From positions 1 to 31,442 of IMG/VR virus record IMGVR_UViG_3300036772_000553: a DNA stretch of 31,442 nt, one strand, 5' to 3'. Made by a program: the position numbers and the translations under genes. Positions within the stretch are counted from its first letter, which is position 1; each line of letters begins with the position of its first letter. This document shows positions 16,968 through 26,471 of this stretch, one piece after another. The notes under the pieces are model-generated. The model ran no database searches. It saw nothing but the letters and a program-made list of their open reading frames with translations, and was not told the DNA's origin. This DNA comes from a virus.

Positions 16968-17168
16968 TTAATGGCAGCGTTTGAAATTCTCACCGTCTGC
17001 ATCCTCTACCGCCAACCCCGCCATAACCAGTTGCGTCAGTATCAGCTGACAACGCCCTACACTTATACGCATCAGGTTTGCCAGGTATTCAACCGACTTC
17101 CAGTTTTTGTGGCTGAGGCAGCTATAAAGAATTTTCGCGGTGTATGTCATATCTTGCTGTTTTAGCAT
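16968..17168 (-). CDS. 66-aa winged-helix-like hypothetical protein
   Basis: No firm family. The pattern ILYSCLSHKNWKSVEYLANLMRISVGRCQLILTQL is that of a winged helix-turn-helix, and AVEDADGENFKRC could be the wing. It is the first minus-strand gene after Q once the reversed cassette is skipped, so it may regulate late or methylase expression. AAGGG lies about 10 bases upstream. Confidence 0.65.
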   Translation of the reverse strand: MLKQQDMTYTAKILYSCLSHKNWKSVEYLANLMRISVGRCQLILTQLVMAGLAVEDADGENFKRCH

Positions 17169-17358
17169 GTCTTCTACCCTTTATTTTTGGCGTGACACAC
17201 AGATAACTCTAGTTCGGTAAAGCAGCAAGCTGAAAGGTTTGTTGGTTAGTCTGGGAGAGTAATTATTAGACTCATGCGTTAAATTTACGCGTTTGTTACA
17301 TATTTTGACTGATAAGCGTTGTGTCTTTGTGACCACTCTTACCACTCTACAATAGTTT

Positions 17359-17387
17359 TTGCGTACGCGTTAGTATTTGATTACAAT
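17359..17387 (+). promoter_or_regulatory. Sigma-70-type promoter of the reversed cassette
   Basis: TTGCGT (17359-17364), 17-base spacer, TACAAT (17382-17387). The spacer starts inside the perfect palindrome GCGTACGC (17361-17368), a possible operator. Expected start of transcription is near 17394, about 26 bases before the first ATG. It would be active in the lysogen unless repressed. Confidence 0.65.
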
Positions 17388-17419
17388 AAAAATAATCCAA
17401 CCTTAACTATGGGCCATCC

Positions 17420-18241
17420 ATGAACTTTTCTGACGTTAAACAAGGAAATCTCACTAAGAAGTGTCTCGTTAGAGCCTTCAAAGTTAACAGTGCATCTACC
17501 GATGTACTTTTTAAACAAGTGTCTCAGTCAAAAAAATTCCAATCTGGCTCAATTATTAAAATTAATGCTGAAAAGCACCTAATGTTAAAGGCTTATGAAA
17601 CAAATAATAATATCCATTATTTGCACATTGCCTTATACAACCCAAAAGCTCAGGTATCTATTACTCCATTAGTTAATACAGTGAGTGATTTGCTTGATGT
17701 CGAAAACCTCGATGACCTTCATGCTTTTTTACTTATCAAAGATAATAAAATCGCATCTTTGATGCAAATATCCACAAACTGGTGTGAAGTTAAAATTGCA
17801 AAAATATTTAACCAGTTTGGGATAAAAATAACCCCATCGGCAATATTGCAAAAAAATGTTGTCCAGCGGATTAAAGATGACAAGTTGAAAGCATTACATC
17901 TAAACATCGATGTGGATGAAGCAGATTTTGTAAAAGCACCAGGATTAATAGAATCAATATTTAACAAAGAGCCGAAAGTTAGGGCTAAAGGTATCTCAGG
18001 ACATTTAACTATTGATGCAAAAGGAAATGCCGAACTGGCACAGTCAATAGAAAATAACCCTGCCGACTGGGTATCAGATCTTGACAGTGATTTTTATATT
18101 GAAACTAAGAAAGGTGAGAAAATTACTAGTGATGATCTCAAGCTAACCAAAACCTACTTCACCGTGCCATACGGTTCTAAGTCTATCAACGCAAAGTACG
18201 CAAAAGAAATCCTAGAGGATTTTGCTGCAAAAGAGCTATAA
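17420..18241 (+). CDS. RexA-like soluble partner of a two-gene exclusion-type cassette (inferred)
   Basis: A 273-residue cytosolic protein without signal or membrane segment. No sequence family is certain. It resembles lambda RexA (279 aa) in length, in partner and in the order of features: a strand block FLLIKDNKIASLMQI (RexA FLFVEGDTIGFARTV, from memory), then a helix, a VVQRIKDD-KLKALHL segment, a GHLTID strand and a C-terminal helix. RexA is the DNA-binding sensor that triggers RexB. The gene is AT-rich (about one third GC), opposite in strand to its neighbours, has its own promoter, and is followed 28 bases later by a 4-TM protein gene. The ribosome site is weak. KwaB of Kiwa is an alternative analogue. 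Confidence 0.55.
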   Translation: MNFSDVKQGNLTKKCLVRAFKVNSASTDVLFKQVSQSKKFQSGSIIKINAEKHLMLKAYETNNNIHYLHIALYNPKAQVSITPLVNTVSDLLDVENLDDLHAFLLIKDNKIASLMQISTNWCEVKIAKIFNQFGIKITPSAILQKNVVQRIKDDKLKALHLNIDVDEADFVKAPGLIESIFNKEPKVRAKGISGHLTIDAKGNAELAQSIENNPADWVSDLDSDFYIETKKGEKITSDDLKLTKTYFTVPYGSKSINAKYAKEILEDFAAKEL

Positions 18242-18269
18242 TCTAGGTATAGGTTATCAGGAGGCTTAA

Positions 18270-18755
18270 ATGCTAAAAAAAATTAATACTACAGGGTTGA
18301 TTATTTCAACACTGAACATTTTAGCCTCCATCAGCTTTTCTATATTTCTTACTGATAGCCTGACCAATAATAGTGATGCATTAAACTTAGTCGCCAATGT
18401 TTTTTCCATTCTTTCAGGTTTTTTACTTTTAGTGATAACAATGTCGGGTGAAAACTCGGCCATCATGGATAATATAAGTGACCTTGATGCAGCCTATCAA
18501 GAAAAGCGTTTTCTTATGCGCTTTAATAAATACTACGCTCTCTTTTTACTATATATATTAACACTGGCTTTAATATTTGTTTTTTACCTTATTTCAAAAA
18601 ACAAAGAAAATACATCTCAACTTTTCTCATTAACAAAGTCAGTCATAGGCCACGCCATCGCATTTTTGACCTGTTTTTCTTTCATTCAATCAACCTTCAT
18701 CCCTTTAAAAATAAAAGAGCTTTTCAGAGAAAAAAGGGAACTTAACAAAAAATAA
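18270..18755 (+). CDS. Four-TM membrane protein, RexB-like partner (inferred)
   Basis: A 161-residue inner-membrane protein with segments at about 8-28, 38-58, 88-108 and 123-146, short loops and a basic Lys/Arg-rich tail. Lambda RexB is 144 aa with four segments and a similar charged stretch between the second and third (here MDNISDLDAAYQEKRFLMR). RexB is held to be an ion channel that depolarises the infected cell. A perfect AGGAGG lies 5 bases upstream of the ATG, much stronger than for the first gene. The gene ends at a bidirectional terminator. Confidence 0.6.
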   Translation: MLKKINTTGLIISTLNILASISFSIFLTDSLTNNSDALNLVANVFSILSGFLLLVITMSGENSAIMDNISDLDAAYQEKRFLMRFNKYYALFLLYILTLALIFVFYLISKNKENTSQLFSLTKSVIGHAIAFLTCFSFIQSTFIPLKIKELFREKRELNKK

Positions 18756-18773
18756 GCCGCTTTCGCGGCTTTT
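18754..18773. terminator. Bidirectional intrinsic terminator between cassette and Q
   Basis: AAGCCGC-TTTC-GCGGCTT with TTTT after it on the plus strand, and TTATTTTTTG after it on the minus strand. It closes the plus-strand cassette and can also end early-right transcripts coming from Q. Confidence 0.9.
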
Positions 18774-18775
18774 AA

Positions 18776-19123
18776 TCAAGCTAAAATTATATATAACATT
18801 CCATCAATAAATCCTAGCGCGGTCTGTAGCTCCTTTCTTATTGTTCCATCTGAGCACTTCCGCTTCTTCGCAATAGCCCGCAACGAGATACCGATAACAA
18901 AGTGGGCCATGACCAACTCATACTCTTTCGGCTTATATTGCCGTAAGCGAGCCACACAACCATCAATCATGATCCCTTCATCATCACAGCACTGAGGTCG
19001 TGATTTCTTCCCATGTGGAATAAGCCCCTTAAAACCCGCAGCAATCGGCTGCCAGTCAACACCACTACTATCTGAAGCTGCCCATGCTCCCCAGCGGTCT
19101 AAAACTTCGTACATATCACGCAT
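18776..19123 (-). CDS. Q: Late antiterminator Q (PF06530 family)
   Basis: A 115-residue protein: VLDRWGAWAASDSSGVDW, IAAGFKGLIPHGKKSRPQCCDD, YKPKEYELVMAHFVIGISLRAIAKKRKCS (helix-turn-helix), then IRKELQTALGFIDGML. It modifies RNA polymerase at the late promoter so that it ignores terminators such as those at 13.0, 5.2 and 3.2 kb. The ATG has AGGAG about 10 bases upstream and overlaps the TGA of a mini-ORF. The late promoter should lie downstream, but the reversed cassette now separates Q from the late genes. Confidence 0.93.
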   Translation of the reverse strand: MRDMYEVLDRWGAWAASDSSGVDWQPIAAGFKGLIPHGKKSRPQCCDDEGIMIDGCVARLRQYKPKEYELVMAHFVIGISLRAIAKKRKCSDGTIRKELQTALGFIDGMLYIILA

Positions 19124-23784: not shown

Positions 23785-24545
23785 TGGATATTAAAGACAT
23801 CAGACGGCGCAACTTACTTGCGCTAATAAACGACTACCTTTTCCGTCACCCTAAATCTGGTAAGGCGGGCTTTGCGGAAGAGGTAGGCATACCCCCTTCT
23901 CAACTCAGTCAATTAAGTAGCGACAGAGGAATTCGCAATATAGGTGATGTTATGGCCAGACGAATCGAGGTAAGCCTTGCTTTACCACATGGCTGGATGG
24001 ACTCCCCTAAATGGGATGCCAGTAACGAAACCCCCATGCTCAACTATTCTGTCGTGGAACCTCTAGTCGAGAAATTTACACTTCACAGCGAGCCAGAAGG
24101 CTACCCTGATCAAAAATACAGGCTTGAGGTTTTAGATACTGAGTTTAGCTGCGGGGGCGGAAGGTTAAACTCTGAATATCCAGAAGTTATTCGTTCCATT
24201 GAGTTAGATCCGGAAGAGGCCAAAAGGATGTTTGGTGGTCGGCAAGCCGCATCTCTTAAGATAGCCACAGCCATGGGGGATAGCATGTTAGGCAGCATAT
24301 TCCCTGGGGAGCTAGTTGTATTGGATGTAACGATTAAACGTTTTATAAGCGATGGCATTTATGCTTTCGTTTATGGGGATAATTTCCATATCAAACGCCT
24401 GCAGCTGTTAAAAGACCGGATGATTGTAATTAGCGATAATGCTTCTTATGAGCGATGGGAAGTGACAAATGAAGATGAGGAATTATTCCATATACAGGGT
24501 TTTGTTATAGGTAAATGGCAAATGTCTTATACCAGACTCGGTTGA
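23784..24545 (+). CDS. cI: CI-like prophage repressor with S24 autocleavage domain
   Basis: A 253-residue LexA/CI-type repressor. The HTH lies in about 28-48 (AGFAEEVGIPPSQLSQL). The C-terminal S24 peptidase has Ser167 (GDSM) and Lys204 (FHIKR). A Cys123-Gly124 pair before the peptidase fold is the probable self-cleavage site under RecA, so induction by DNA damage is likely. The ATG overlaps an operator half-site (GATAAATGG), suggesting autoregulation. A strong terminator follows. Confidence 0.93.
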   Translation: MDIKDIRRRNLLALINDYLFRHPKSGKAGFAEEVGIPPSQLSQLSSDRGIRNIGDVMARRIEVSLALPHGWMDSPKWDASNETPMLNYSVVEPLVEKFTLHSEPEGYPDQKYRLEVLDTEFSCGGGRLNSEYPEVIRSIELDPEEAKRMFGGRQAASLKIATAMGDSMLGSIFPGELVVLDVTIKRFISDGIYAFVYGDNFHIKRLQLLKDRMIVISDNASYERWEVTNEDEELFHIQGFVIGKWQMSYTRLG

Positions 24546-24562
24546 TAACCCCCTCACTACAT

Positions 24563-24587
24563 AAACCGCCTAAATGGCGGTTTTTTT
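24563..24587 (+). terminator. Intrinsic terminator after cI
   Basis: AAACCGCC-TAAAT-GGCGGTTT followed by more T. It separates the repressor transcript from the left operon. Confidence 0.92.
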
Positions 24588-24604
24588 ACACCTTTCAAAA
24601 AATA

Positions 24605-24691
24605 TTTATCATTATTTATCAGAAACATAATCAAAATCCTGTCACAAATGATAAATTATGACTTTACCAAACTTTATCATTGGGATAAATT
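24605..24691 (+). promoter_or_regulatory. Left early promoter PL with repressor operators
   Basis: A perfect operator TTTATC-ATTGG-GATAAA at 24673-24689 matches those at the cI-cro switch. Half-sites TTTATC lie at 24605 and 24615, and GATAAA at 24650. A promoter TTTACC (24663-24668), 17-base spacer, TAAATT (24686-24691) encloses the operator, so repressor binding should block it. Confidence 0.75.
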
Positions 24692-24722
24692 TAACTCATC
24701 GGCAAACAACGGAGCCAGTGAG

Positions 24723-24935
24723 ATGAACCAAGAAACACAGCAAACATTGGAAAGCCACACTCTCAGGCAGGCATGTCACCAAGTGGATGAAGTAATTAAA
24801 TGTCTTTCTCTAGTTCAACATTCAGAAGTGAACGAAAACGTCGCAGCTGTAATTCTTTTATGCAAAAGGACTCTTGCCCATGCAGCGGATGAACTTAACG
24901 AGATGTTTGGTGCTGACTGGCCGGAGAATAAGTAA
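24723..24935 (+). CDS. 70-aa helical protein, first gene of the left operon
   Basis: Not recognised. It begins MNQETQQTLESH and is fully helical (CHQVDEVIKCLSLVQHSE, VAAVILLCKRTLAHAADELNEMFG). The start at 24723 is chosen for GGAG 8 bases upstream; the frame upstream runs through PL and cannot be coding in the PL transcript. It resembles the next products in layout: two helices, with the second rich in Leu/Ala. It is probably an early host-takeover or anti-defence factor. Confidence 0.75.
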   Translation: MNQETQQTLESHTLRQACHQVDEVIKCLSLVQHSEVNENVAAVILLCKRTLAHAADELNEMFGADWPENK

Positions 24936-25144
24936 TGAAAACTCCTATAGAGATGCTTGAATCAGTTAATGCAGAGATCATCGAAAACACAGCGTTACTT
25001 GAACTTATATATAAAAACAGCGCTGAAGACCCCCAGCTAGATTGTGCTATTGCCTGCTTATTAAGATCGCTTTATCGGACTAGAGAAAAAGCAGAAATCT
25101 ATGTTGAGGAAATTATCTCTAATACCGAAGGGAAAAGGCAATGA
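24935..25144 (+). CDS. 69-aa acidic helical protein of the left operon
   Basis: Not recognised. It begins MKTPIEMLESVN and reads IIENTALLELIYKNS, then LDCAIACLLRSLYRTREKAEIYVEEI. The two-helix layout is like that of its neighbours. The ATG overlaps the previous stop (TAATG), with GGAG 8 bases upstream. Confidence 0.75.
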   Translation: MKTPIEMLESVNAEIIENTALLELIYKNSAEDPQLDCAIACLLRSLYRTREKAEIYVEEIISNTEGKRQ

Positions 25145-25518
25145 ATAATCAAAGGGCAATGAGTAGCATTGAGAGAGCAAAAGCAGTGGTGATATGTTTA
25201 ATCGAGGCTAGGGATCAGTTAAGTGATAAAGATATTGAAAGTAATCTTTTCACTATTAACTCATTGTTATGCGATGCCAGTGAGCATGGGGGAAGCACAA
25301 CAAAAGCAGCGACTGCAAGCATCTGTGATATAGCAGATGATATATTTAATGTGCTGCATGAAGCGGAGAAAATGAAAGAAACAGCCTGTATGTTCCTTGA
25401 TAGCTGCTTCACCAATAAAGACAATGGCTCTCGAAATTTAATAATGACTTCTGCTTTAGCCGATTACGCAATAAATATCACCAGATTACTCGAAGAGTTA
25501 GAATCAAAAATTAATTAA
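25141..25518 (+). CDS. 125-aa helical protein of the left operon
   Basis: Not recognised. It looks like two copies of the small helical layout of the neighbouring genes: AKAVVICLIEARDQL with INSLLCDASEHGG, then ICDIADDIFNVLHEAEKM with ALADYAINITRLLEELESK. It overlaps the previous gene by four bases (ATGA) and has GAAGGG upstream. A 69-base gap follows. Confidence 0.75.
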   Translation: MNNQRAMSSIERAKAVVICLIEARDQLSDKDIESNLFTINSLLCDASEHGGSTTKAATASICDIADDIFNVLHEAEKMKETACMFLDSCFTNKDNGSRNLIMTSALADYAINITRLLEELESKIN

Positions 25519-25587
25519 ATAATTCAAATTTTAATACAGCTTTATAGCTGGGGGATTCCACACCCAAATTTCGGAGAACATTTTATT

Positions 25588-25698
25588 ATGAATTTTATTA
25601 AAGACGTTAATGCATATAAAAACGCATTGCTCTATGCCGCGCACGGACAAGAAGTAATTGCCTCTTTATATCTTCGCAAAGCTTACGGAGTGAATTAA
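25588..25698 (+). CDS. 36-aa small protein of the left operon
   Basis: It begins MNFIKDVNAYKNALLYAAHG and ends KAYGVN. It is a helical peptide. GGAG lies about 11 bases upstream and its TAA overlaps the next ATG (TAATG), so translation is coupled as in the rest of the operon. No family recognised. Confidence 0.55.
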   Translation: MNFIKDVNAYKNALLYAAHGQEVIASLYLRKAYGVN

Positions 25699-25898
25699 TG
25701 AGAAATTCAAAACTAGATATTATCGACGTACTTAACGCTGCAAGTAAATCCCGACAGCTTAATGCACTTCTACAGAATATTTTTGAGAAAGGTGCAGATG
25801 GTTGCAATCCAGATAACGAATTATTGGGATTGGCTTATGACATTTCAGGCGTAATAACTCGCTTCATGGATGGACTGGAAAGGGAAGAAGATAAATGA
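25698..25898 (+). CDS. 66-aa helical protein of the left operon
   Basis: Not recognised. It begins MRNSKLDIIDVLNAASKSRQ, has an NALLQNIFEKG helix and a final GLAYDISGVITRFMDGLERE helix. The layout is like that of the products of 24723 and 24935. It overlaps its neighbours on both sides by four bases or fewer. Confidence 0.72.
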   Translation: MRNSKLDIIDVLNAASKSRQLNALLQNIFEKGADGCNPDNELLGLAYDISGVITRFMDGLEREEDK

Positions 25899-26248
25899 CA
25901 AACCTGATTGAAACCCGTCGCCGTCGCATAGTTATTGCAAAGCTGAATTCAATGGAGCGAAAAACCGGTGGTCACCTTGTTGTCGTTAAGTTACCAAACA
26001 ATGAAGTAGCCACTGTCGAATTAAACGAAGAAATTCTGATTAAGGCTTTAAAGAAAATATTCGAAGCAATGGTATTTGATTCAAATAAACGAACCGAGGC
26101 CGAAAAGCATATATCAGACCACTACAGCGCATGTATGGGTAACAAATTAAACAAGCTTTCACCGCTTGGCTTTGAGTTCATGAATGCGGTAATAGCAAAT
26201 TTAGCTGAACAGGCATTCGAACATAAAGGAGTTGGCAATGGCAACTAA
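25895..26248 (+). CDS. 117-aa hypothetical protein of the left operon
   Basis: Not recognised. A basic start (MTNLIETRRRRIVIAKLNSM), a short beta section (GGHLVVVKLPNNEVATVEL) and a helical rest. ATGA overlap with the previous gene. The final codons overlap the ribosome site and start of the next gene. Confidence 0.72.
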   Translation: MTNLIETRRRRIVIAKLNSMERKTGGHLVVVKLPNNEVATVELNEEILIKALKKIFEAMVFDSNKRTEAEKHISDHYSACMGNKLNKLSPLGFEFMNAVIANLAEQAFEHKGVGNGN

Positions 26249-26471
26249 ACAGCCATCCAATATTTTAAATAATCTGACTATTCCACTTCCTCTTTTAAAT
26301 GTGGACTTACATGTATTACCAGACTTTACCGGACGCGTTGTTCTTTATATCGAAAAAGGCATCGTCAAATGTGATCGAAGACTACGCGATGAAGAACACA
26401 TTTGCGCGTTGGGCTCATTTATCGAGATGGCCCGAGAAGCTGGATGGCCTTTACAGAGGCCGAACTCATGA
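26238..26471 (+). CDS. 77-aa hypothetical protein of the left operon
   Basis: Not recognised. It is beta-rich at first (LTIPLPLLNVDLHVLP, GRVVLYIEKGIVKC) with a helical end (GSFIEMAREAGWPL). The start at 26238 is chosen for AAGGAG 6 bases upstream; a TTG two codons earlier lies inside that ribosome site. The stop overlaps the next ATG. Confidence 0.7.
   Translation: MATKQPSNILNNLTIPLPLLNVDLHVLPDFTGRVVLYIEKGIVKCDRRLRDEEHICALGSFIEMAREAGWPLQRPNS

Follow-up and report, generated by a model that had tools for sequence, protein, structure and literature searches.

Two adjacent genes located between the antiterminator gene Q and the late genes of a lambdoid prophage, named here A and B, probably constitute a RexAB-type exclusion cassette of a new sequence family, carried in a cargo slot beside Q. 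The prophage record occupies the whole window, that is, the complete stretch of 31,442 nucleotides analyzed. The probability that the A-B pair is a superinfection-exclusion (abortive-infection) cassette of the RexAB type, carried as a moron, is estimated at about 0.65. The cassette most likely defends its host cell from infection by other phages, a role that we infer and that would act through depolarization of the membrane.

The cassette is an AT-rich two-gene unit on the plus strand (32-37% GC, versus 46-54% in both flanks). Its neighbours (a methyltransferase gene, a 66-aa gene and Q) lie on the opposite strand, and in the window the minus strand also carries the genes just left of 17.2 kb and all those from Q through the replication genes. 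The GC contrast and the strands of the neighbours agree with the preliminary description made from the letters alone, in which an AT-rich block opposed to its surroundings had been noticed. The two open reading frames described there, for a soluble protein of 273 aa and a protein of 161 aa with four membrane segments, were also recovered, B showing four long helices in its AF2 model and four by hydropathy. The intergenic gap between A and B is 28 bp, and the remaining features are listed in Table 1. The terminator stem closing the cassette is real (z about -3.4), its T-run being strong only on the minus strand and short on the plus strand, so that the term bidirectional previously applied to it was generous. 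Neither Rfam families nor tRNA genes were found in the window.

Table 1. Features of the A-B cassette and its borders in the window.
Feature	Position	Strand	Remarks
Conserved regulatory block CTCTTACCACTCTACAATAGTTTTTGCGTACGCGTTA	17336..17372	no strand	common to the cargo slot in many lambdoid prophages
Cassette promoter TTGCGT-N17-TACAAT	17359..17387	+	-35 weak, -10 conserved
Gene A	17420..18241	+	273 aa; phrog_23561 (unknown function)
Ribosome-binding site of gene B, AGGAGG	18259..18264	+	
Gene B	18270..18755	+	161 aa, four-helix membrane protein
Terminator stem between B and Q	18754..18771	no strand	
Antiterminator Q (PF06530)	18776..19123	-	convergent with the cassette; marks the right edge of the cargo slot and is conserved there

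Other features of the window were recorded. The DNA methyltransferase (PF01555, 15765-16820) matches a 221-residue profile over 311 residues, which points to a long insert within the methyltransferase domain, and it carries a helix-turn-helix-like stretch. The 66-aa gene (phrog_331, 16968-17168), located to the left of the conserved block, shows weak helix-turn-helix similarity. A second AT-rich stretch (24300-26400, 36-42% GC) contains small plus-strand genes to the right of an S24-type repressor.

The promoter TTGCGT-N17-TACAAT, already proposed in the preliminary description as belonging to the cassette, is weak by consensus alone (3/6 positions at -35 and 5/6 at -10) and was not listed by a generic consensus promoter scan. 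Despite this weak match, the proposal is supported by the conserved spacing, since a TANNNT hexamer is found 17 bases after TTGCGT in 43 of the 68 distinct block copies among the matches listed, versus 0-9, mostly 0-4, at other offsets in the same copies. Hexamers similar to TANAAT recur 5' of A in its relatives. This spacing is evidence for a promoter resident in the slot and used by any cargo that happens to be there. In the late-region copies of A, the conserved block, ending in TTTTTGCGTACGCGTTA, stands 5' of the gene; it is missing in the copies of the type found in phage 2G7b, so the block is a feature of the site rather than of the cassette.

The slot itself was delimited by an exact scan of viral contigs with the block, which gave at least 120 stretches, 80 loci of which were read; the loci were therefore selected by exact match to the block and the cargo counts describe that set. 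In most of the 80 viral loci sampled the conserved block of about 40 bp precedes unrelated cargo that is convergent with Q, and part of the block is present in 569 E. coli records. Among the matches listed, the Q gene was recognized in 62 sequences (window included), 625-2991 bp past the block and with the cargo between them, and in most loci the longest nearby open reading frame starts 20-190 bp from the block on the same strand. The cargo of the 80 loci among the matches listed comprises about 25 families, with names assigned from scanned representatives: a NA37-like nucleoid-associated protein (PF04245), which is the commonest (19/80 by cluster), phrog_2802 (11 loci), the A-B pair (9 loci), Kiwa (7-8 loci), the PADLOC candidate PDC-S42 (6 loci), GmrSD_N/NsnA (4 loci), an AAA ATPase with a methylase (3 loci), and the further PADLOC candidates PDC-M53A and PDC-M31A, both present. 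Many of the cargo families went unmatched in the defence library that was searched.

Several of these cargoes have features of their own. The NA37-like genes (for instance in loci L215, L233, L211, L174 and L238) are often accompanied by a second gene of about 330-407 aa, and the three tested gave no PADLOC match; together both genes are a possible undescribed defence pair. The phrog_2802 protein (about 308 aa, unknown) is found in L185, L162, L166, L180, L188, L206, L232 and L237, and in L185 it is followed by a 177-aa protein, membrane-bound by appearance. These two genes may be a further cassette of the soluble-plus-membrane type, with no profile relationship to A-B. In E. coli EC71 (L007, 6145-9297) the slot contains, behind the conserved block, a gene for a 1050-aa metallophosphoesterase.

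In the available parts of the open-licence literature on defence hotspots, P2, P4 and phi80-type positions are described and the Q-proximal slot was not found, although an earlier description elsewhere is possible. As presented in those parts, the P2 and P4 hotspots (Rousset 2022, Vassallo 2022) are likewise fixed places, within one phage family, at which defence cargo can be exchanged, whereas the present slot belongs to lambdoid phages, lies between Q and the late genes and has a conserved upstream promoter block.

The block stands at the start of the late genes, with tRNA genes nearby in some E. coli copies, and in phage L tRNA genes are likewise located at the start of the late operon. On the minus strand it contains ACGCGTACGCAAAAA, TATTGT and then, in many relatives, TAAGAG. 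This layout resembles that of phage 21, in which a Q-binding element lies between the -35 and the -10 and is followed by a -10-like pause element. The block was searched for an 8-bp tandem repeat of the kind that Q binds in phage 21, and it contained no more than a 4-bp ACGC repeat, 6 bp apart, so a second function of the block is put forward with caution: besides the putative -35 of the cassette promoter, it may carry on the opposite strand the elements of a Q-dependent late promoter, and Q could occlude the cassette promoter. A broader proposal, which is tentative and has less than even odds, is that lambdoid prophages have in this slot a general, pre-wired dock for defence systems, where a single element would combine the Q-dependent late promoter with a back-to-back cargo promoter. 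Q, produced only in the lytic cycle, would occlude the cargo promoter, and the induced prophage would silence its own defence in this way.

The sequence comparisons have revealed that A-B is not a member of the lambda RexA/RexB sequence families. No significant similarity was found between A and lambda RexA or between B and RexB, either by BLASTP or by profile comparison (hhalign in local mode), and the same kinds of comparison gave nothing significant for A and B against distant RexA relatives or against gp30/gp31 of mycobacteriophage Sbash. The Pfam models RexA (PF15969) and RexB (PF15968) matched neither A nor B at E-values up to 1, nor A and three of its relatives at E-values up to 10; as positive controls, they recognized lambda RexA (1e-97), lambda RexB (8.5e-92) and locus L282 (7e-67). 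No function could be assigned to A or B from Pfam, NCBIfam or PADLOC, PHROGs placed A in an unnamed family, and a sequence search of the PDB gave no match. Sbash gp30/gp31, a proven Rex-like system, likewise fail the Pfam RexA/RexB models, and for this reason the term RexAB-type suits A-B best, on the basis of its predicted fold, its architecture and a single genomic position in common.

The AF2 model of A (pLDDT 83, pTM 0.75) was compared with the PDB by using Foldseek, and the top six matches were, in this order, Iml3, lambda RexA (8TWQ), Iml3, CENP-L, CENP-L and Iml3; 7pkn_L and 7r5s_L are presumably CENP-L, judging by how the chains are lettered in these CCAN entries. The match to 8TWQ has an E-value of 1.3e-3 and a probability of 0.98, with a low TM-score (0.31), and the PDB matches as a whole have modest E-values (1e-3 to 3e-2) and low TM-scores. 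The argument for the fold therefore rests on the coherence of the matches and on the fact that RexA had been named beforehand in the preliminary description. In BFVD, the matches at ranks 6 and 14 are RdgC-type proteins, and both RdgC and IML3/CHL4 have been named as fold relatives of RexA (PMC11077077). The N-terminal part of the model is beta-rich to about residue 154, and the rest consists of strands 156-165, 192-199, 225-229 and 243-248, with helices between them, and a C-terminal helix, an order of elements that agrees with the described RexA layout. The low TM-score to 8TWQ is attributed to a probable domain swing between open and closed forms. A is thus predicted to have a two-domain fold of the RexA/RdgC type and is a putative DNA-binding sensor. 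A fold unrelated to both RexA and KwaB had been anticipated as the outcome that would speak against an exclusion cassette; instead, 8TWQ was the second PDB match and appeared together with its fold relatives, the link to lambda RexA being found by structure and not by sequence or profile. The two components of a RexAB-type system were recognized, a two-domain soluble protein of the RexA/RdgC type in the predicted model of A (TM-score 0.31, low) and an adjacent small four-helix membrane protein in B.

Small prophage membrane proteins often act by blocking DNA entry, as Sie/Imm-like proteins, or as part of toxin-antitoxin morons, and B could be of this kind, with A as its regulator. This explanation is quite improbable, because the domain and family scans gave no helix-turn-helix or antitoxin match for A, which has a predicted fold of the DNA-clamp type instead, and because A never lacks its partner B.

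The conservation of B equals or exceeds that of A, with near-invariant stretches in a membrane helix. The stretch between helices 2 and 3 is also conserved, with F81, R84 and F85 invariant, and in Sbash gp31 defence requires the central cytoplasmic loop that joins helices 2 and 3 (PMC6426596). In BFVD, the model of B matched at rank 5 a Sbash protein of 165 aa, weakly (E 0.28) and with a four-helix bundle, which is a generic fold. The entry is likely, rather than certainly, gp31, which has 165 aa, since the nearest other lengths among the listed genes are 164 aa (gp13 and gp66). These observations are consistent with B as a putative channel or effector. The opposite division of labour, with A as a toxic antiviral effector that the membrane protein B sequesters until infection, has been reported for the Rex-like proteins gp30/gp31 of Butters (PMC12894663) and would fit the same gene order and protein types. 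It is nonetheless unlikely for A-B, because the conservation of B and its near-invariant helix stretches would be expected of an active channel no less than of an anchor, and the closest structural hints, lambda RexA and Sbash, are systems in which the membrane protein is the effector.

The preliminary description had also compared the cassette with Kiwa, and this comparison did not hold. Kiwa likewise combines a membrane protein and a soluble protein, and true KwaA-KwaB pairs hold the same lambdoid slot in other prophages (KwaB with E 2e-126; in L197 a 172-aa protein is followed by KwaB), so that B could be KwaA-like and A KwaB-like. The gene order is reversed in A-B, however, the fold search gives folds of the RexA type and not of KwaB, and a PADLOC scan of B gave only a chance match to a 2TM effector (E 5) and none to KwaA. 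A as a KwaB was ruled out by the absence of matches to any PADLOC KwaB model or to Pfam KwaB (DUF4868) and by the profile comparison with the KwaB proteins of the slot (0.2% probability), which makes a Kiwa-like system highly improbable.

With A alone as query 23 viral loci were found, and with the A alignment 39 (overlapping) viral loci and 5 genome loci, in Raoultella, Enterobacter, Providencia, Pseudocitrobacter and Lonsdalea. B stands directly 3' of A in all of them, some copies of A or B being broken (L003, L080, L029), and B alone as query gave further loci, with A upstream in 9/9 inspected; the pairing is obligate in every intact locus checked. In E. coli SCU-308 (L003) the decayed cassette, with A frameshifted and several stops in B, still lies between Q and the late genes. 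In a blastn search of E. coli, 13 genomes contained 80% or more of the cassette region. When the window is compared with its relatives, dN is 0.12-0.18 with dS saturated, and closer pairs with enough changes to be measured show dN/dS values of about 0.01-0.09; judged by these substitution rates, A and B are real genes under purifying selection. A search for bridging distant homologues in 369 and 395 genomes gave only the already known Raoultella copy, no plasmid copies of the cassette were found, and A-B was phage-borne throughout the contexts examined.

Phage 2G7b carries a diverged A-B pair (29% and 37% identity) 99 bp behind cI, and in L080 a copy is located behind a different cI, which is the rexAB position of lambda. 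Other copies follow a umuC-like gene (L081) or are found in different places (L082, L086), and this variety of contexts indicates that the pair is a mobile moron. The copies directly behind cI, together with the reported ability of lambda RexA to bias the bistable switch (PMC11077077), could also suggest a modulator of lysis-lysogeny, in which A would bind operators and bias the switch of its own phage, exclusion being a by-product. This role is rather unlikely, as most copies are far from the immunity region, beside Q, where other phages keep unrelated defence systems. The presence of known and candidate defence systems in the slot, the relatives in the rexAB position and the 8TWQ match support the distant RexAB-type or new exclusion cassette originally proposed.

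As a RexAB-type cassette, A-B shares with lambda RexAB (T4 rII exclusion) the soluble-then-membrane order, comparable sizes (279/144 versus 273/161 aa), a similar pI of the soluble protein (8.6), the multi-helix membrane partner and the location in a prophage, and differs from it in having its own promoter in the interval between Q and the late genes instead of being co-transcribed with cI. Two-gene Rex-like defences are also known in Sbash (gp30-gp31) and in the Gordonia phage CarolAnn (gp44-gp43, likened to A-B by description). The Sbash genes directly follow the lysis genes, at a distance from the repressor, and those of CarolAnn are co-expressed with the repressor (PMC6426596). Both arrangements recur among the A-B copies. 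The Sbash system is experimentally proven, has other hosts and lacks significant sequence similarity to A-B. RexABpp of Pseudomonas putida (PP_5643-5644) likewise combines, by description, a predicted RexA-like fold with a 4-TM protein, and is prophage-borne and invisible to BLAST; HHpred ties PP_5643 to RexA (98%), whereas A has no such profile link to lambda RexA.

A model of action can be borrowed from RexABpp (PMC12894663) and Sbash (PMC6426596), every step beyond the gene anatomy being reasoned by analogy. In the lysogen, the cassette would be transcribed from its own promoter. A, probably as a dimer clamping DNA, would sense DNA-protein intermediates of an invading phage and activate B in the inner membrane; B would open, the membrane would depolarize, growth and phage synthesis would stop and the infection would abort. 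Because the -35 sits in a block that is probably also part of the Q-dependent late promoter, the cassette may be turned off by Q once its own prophage enters lytic growth.

The Q-proximal slot and its block provide a simple route by which candidate defence systems can be collected. The RexAB-like systems described before number only five (PMC12894663), so one more family, distributed among enterobacterial prophages and accessible in E. coli, offers a tractable comparison for the long-standing question of what triggers RexAB.
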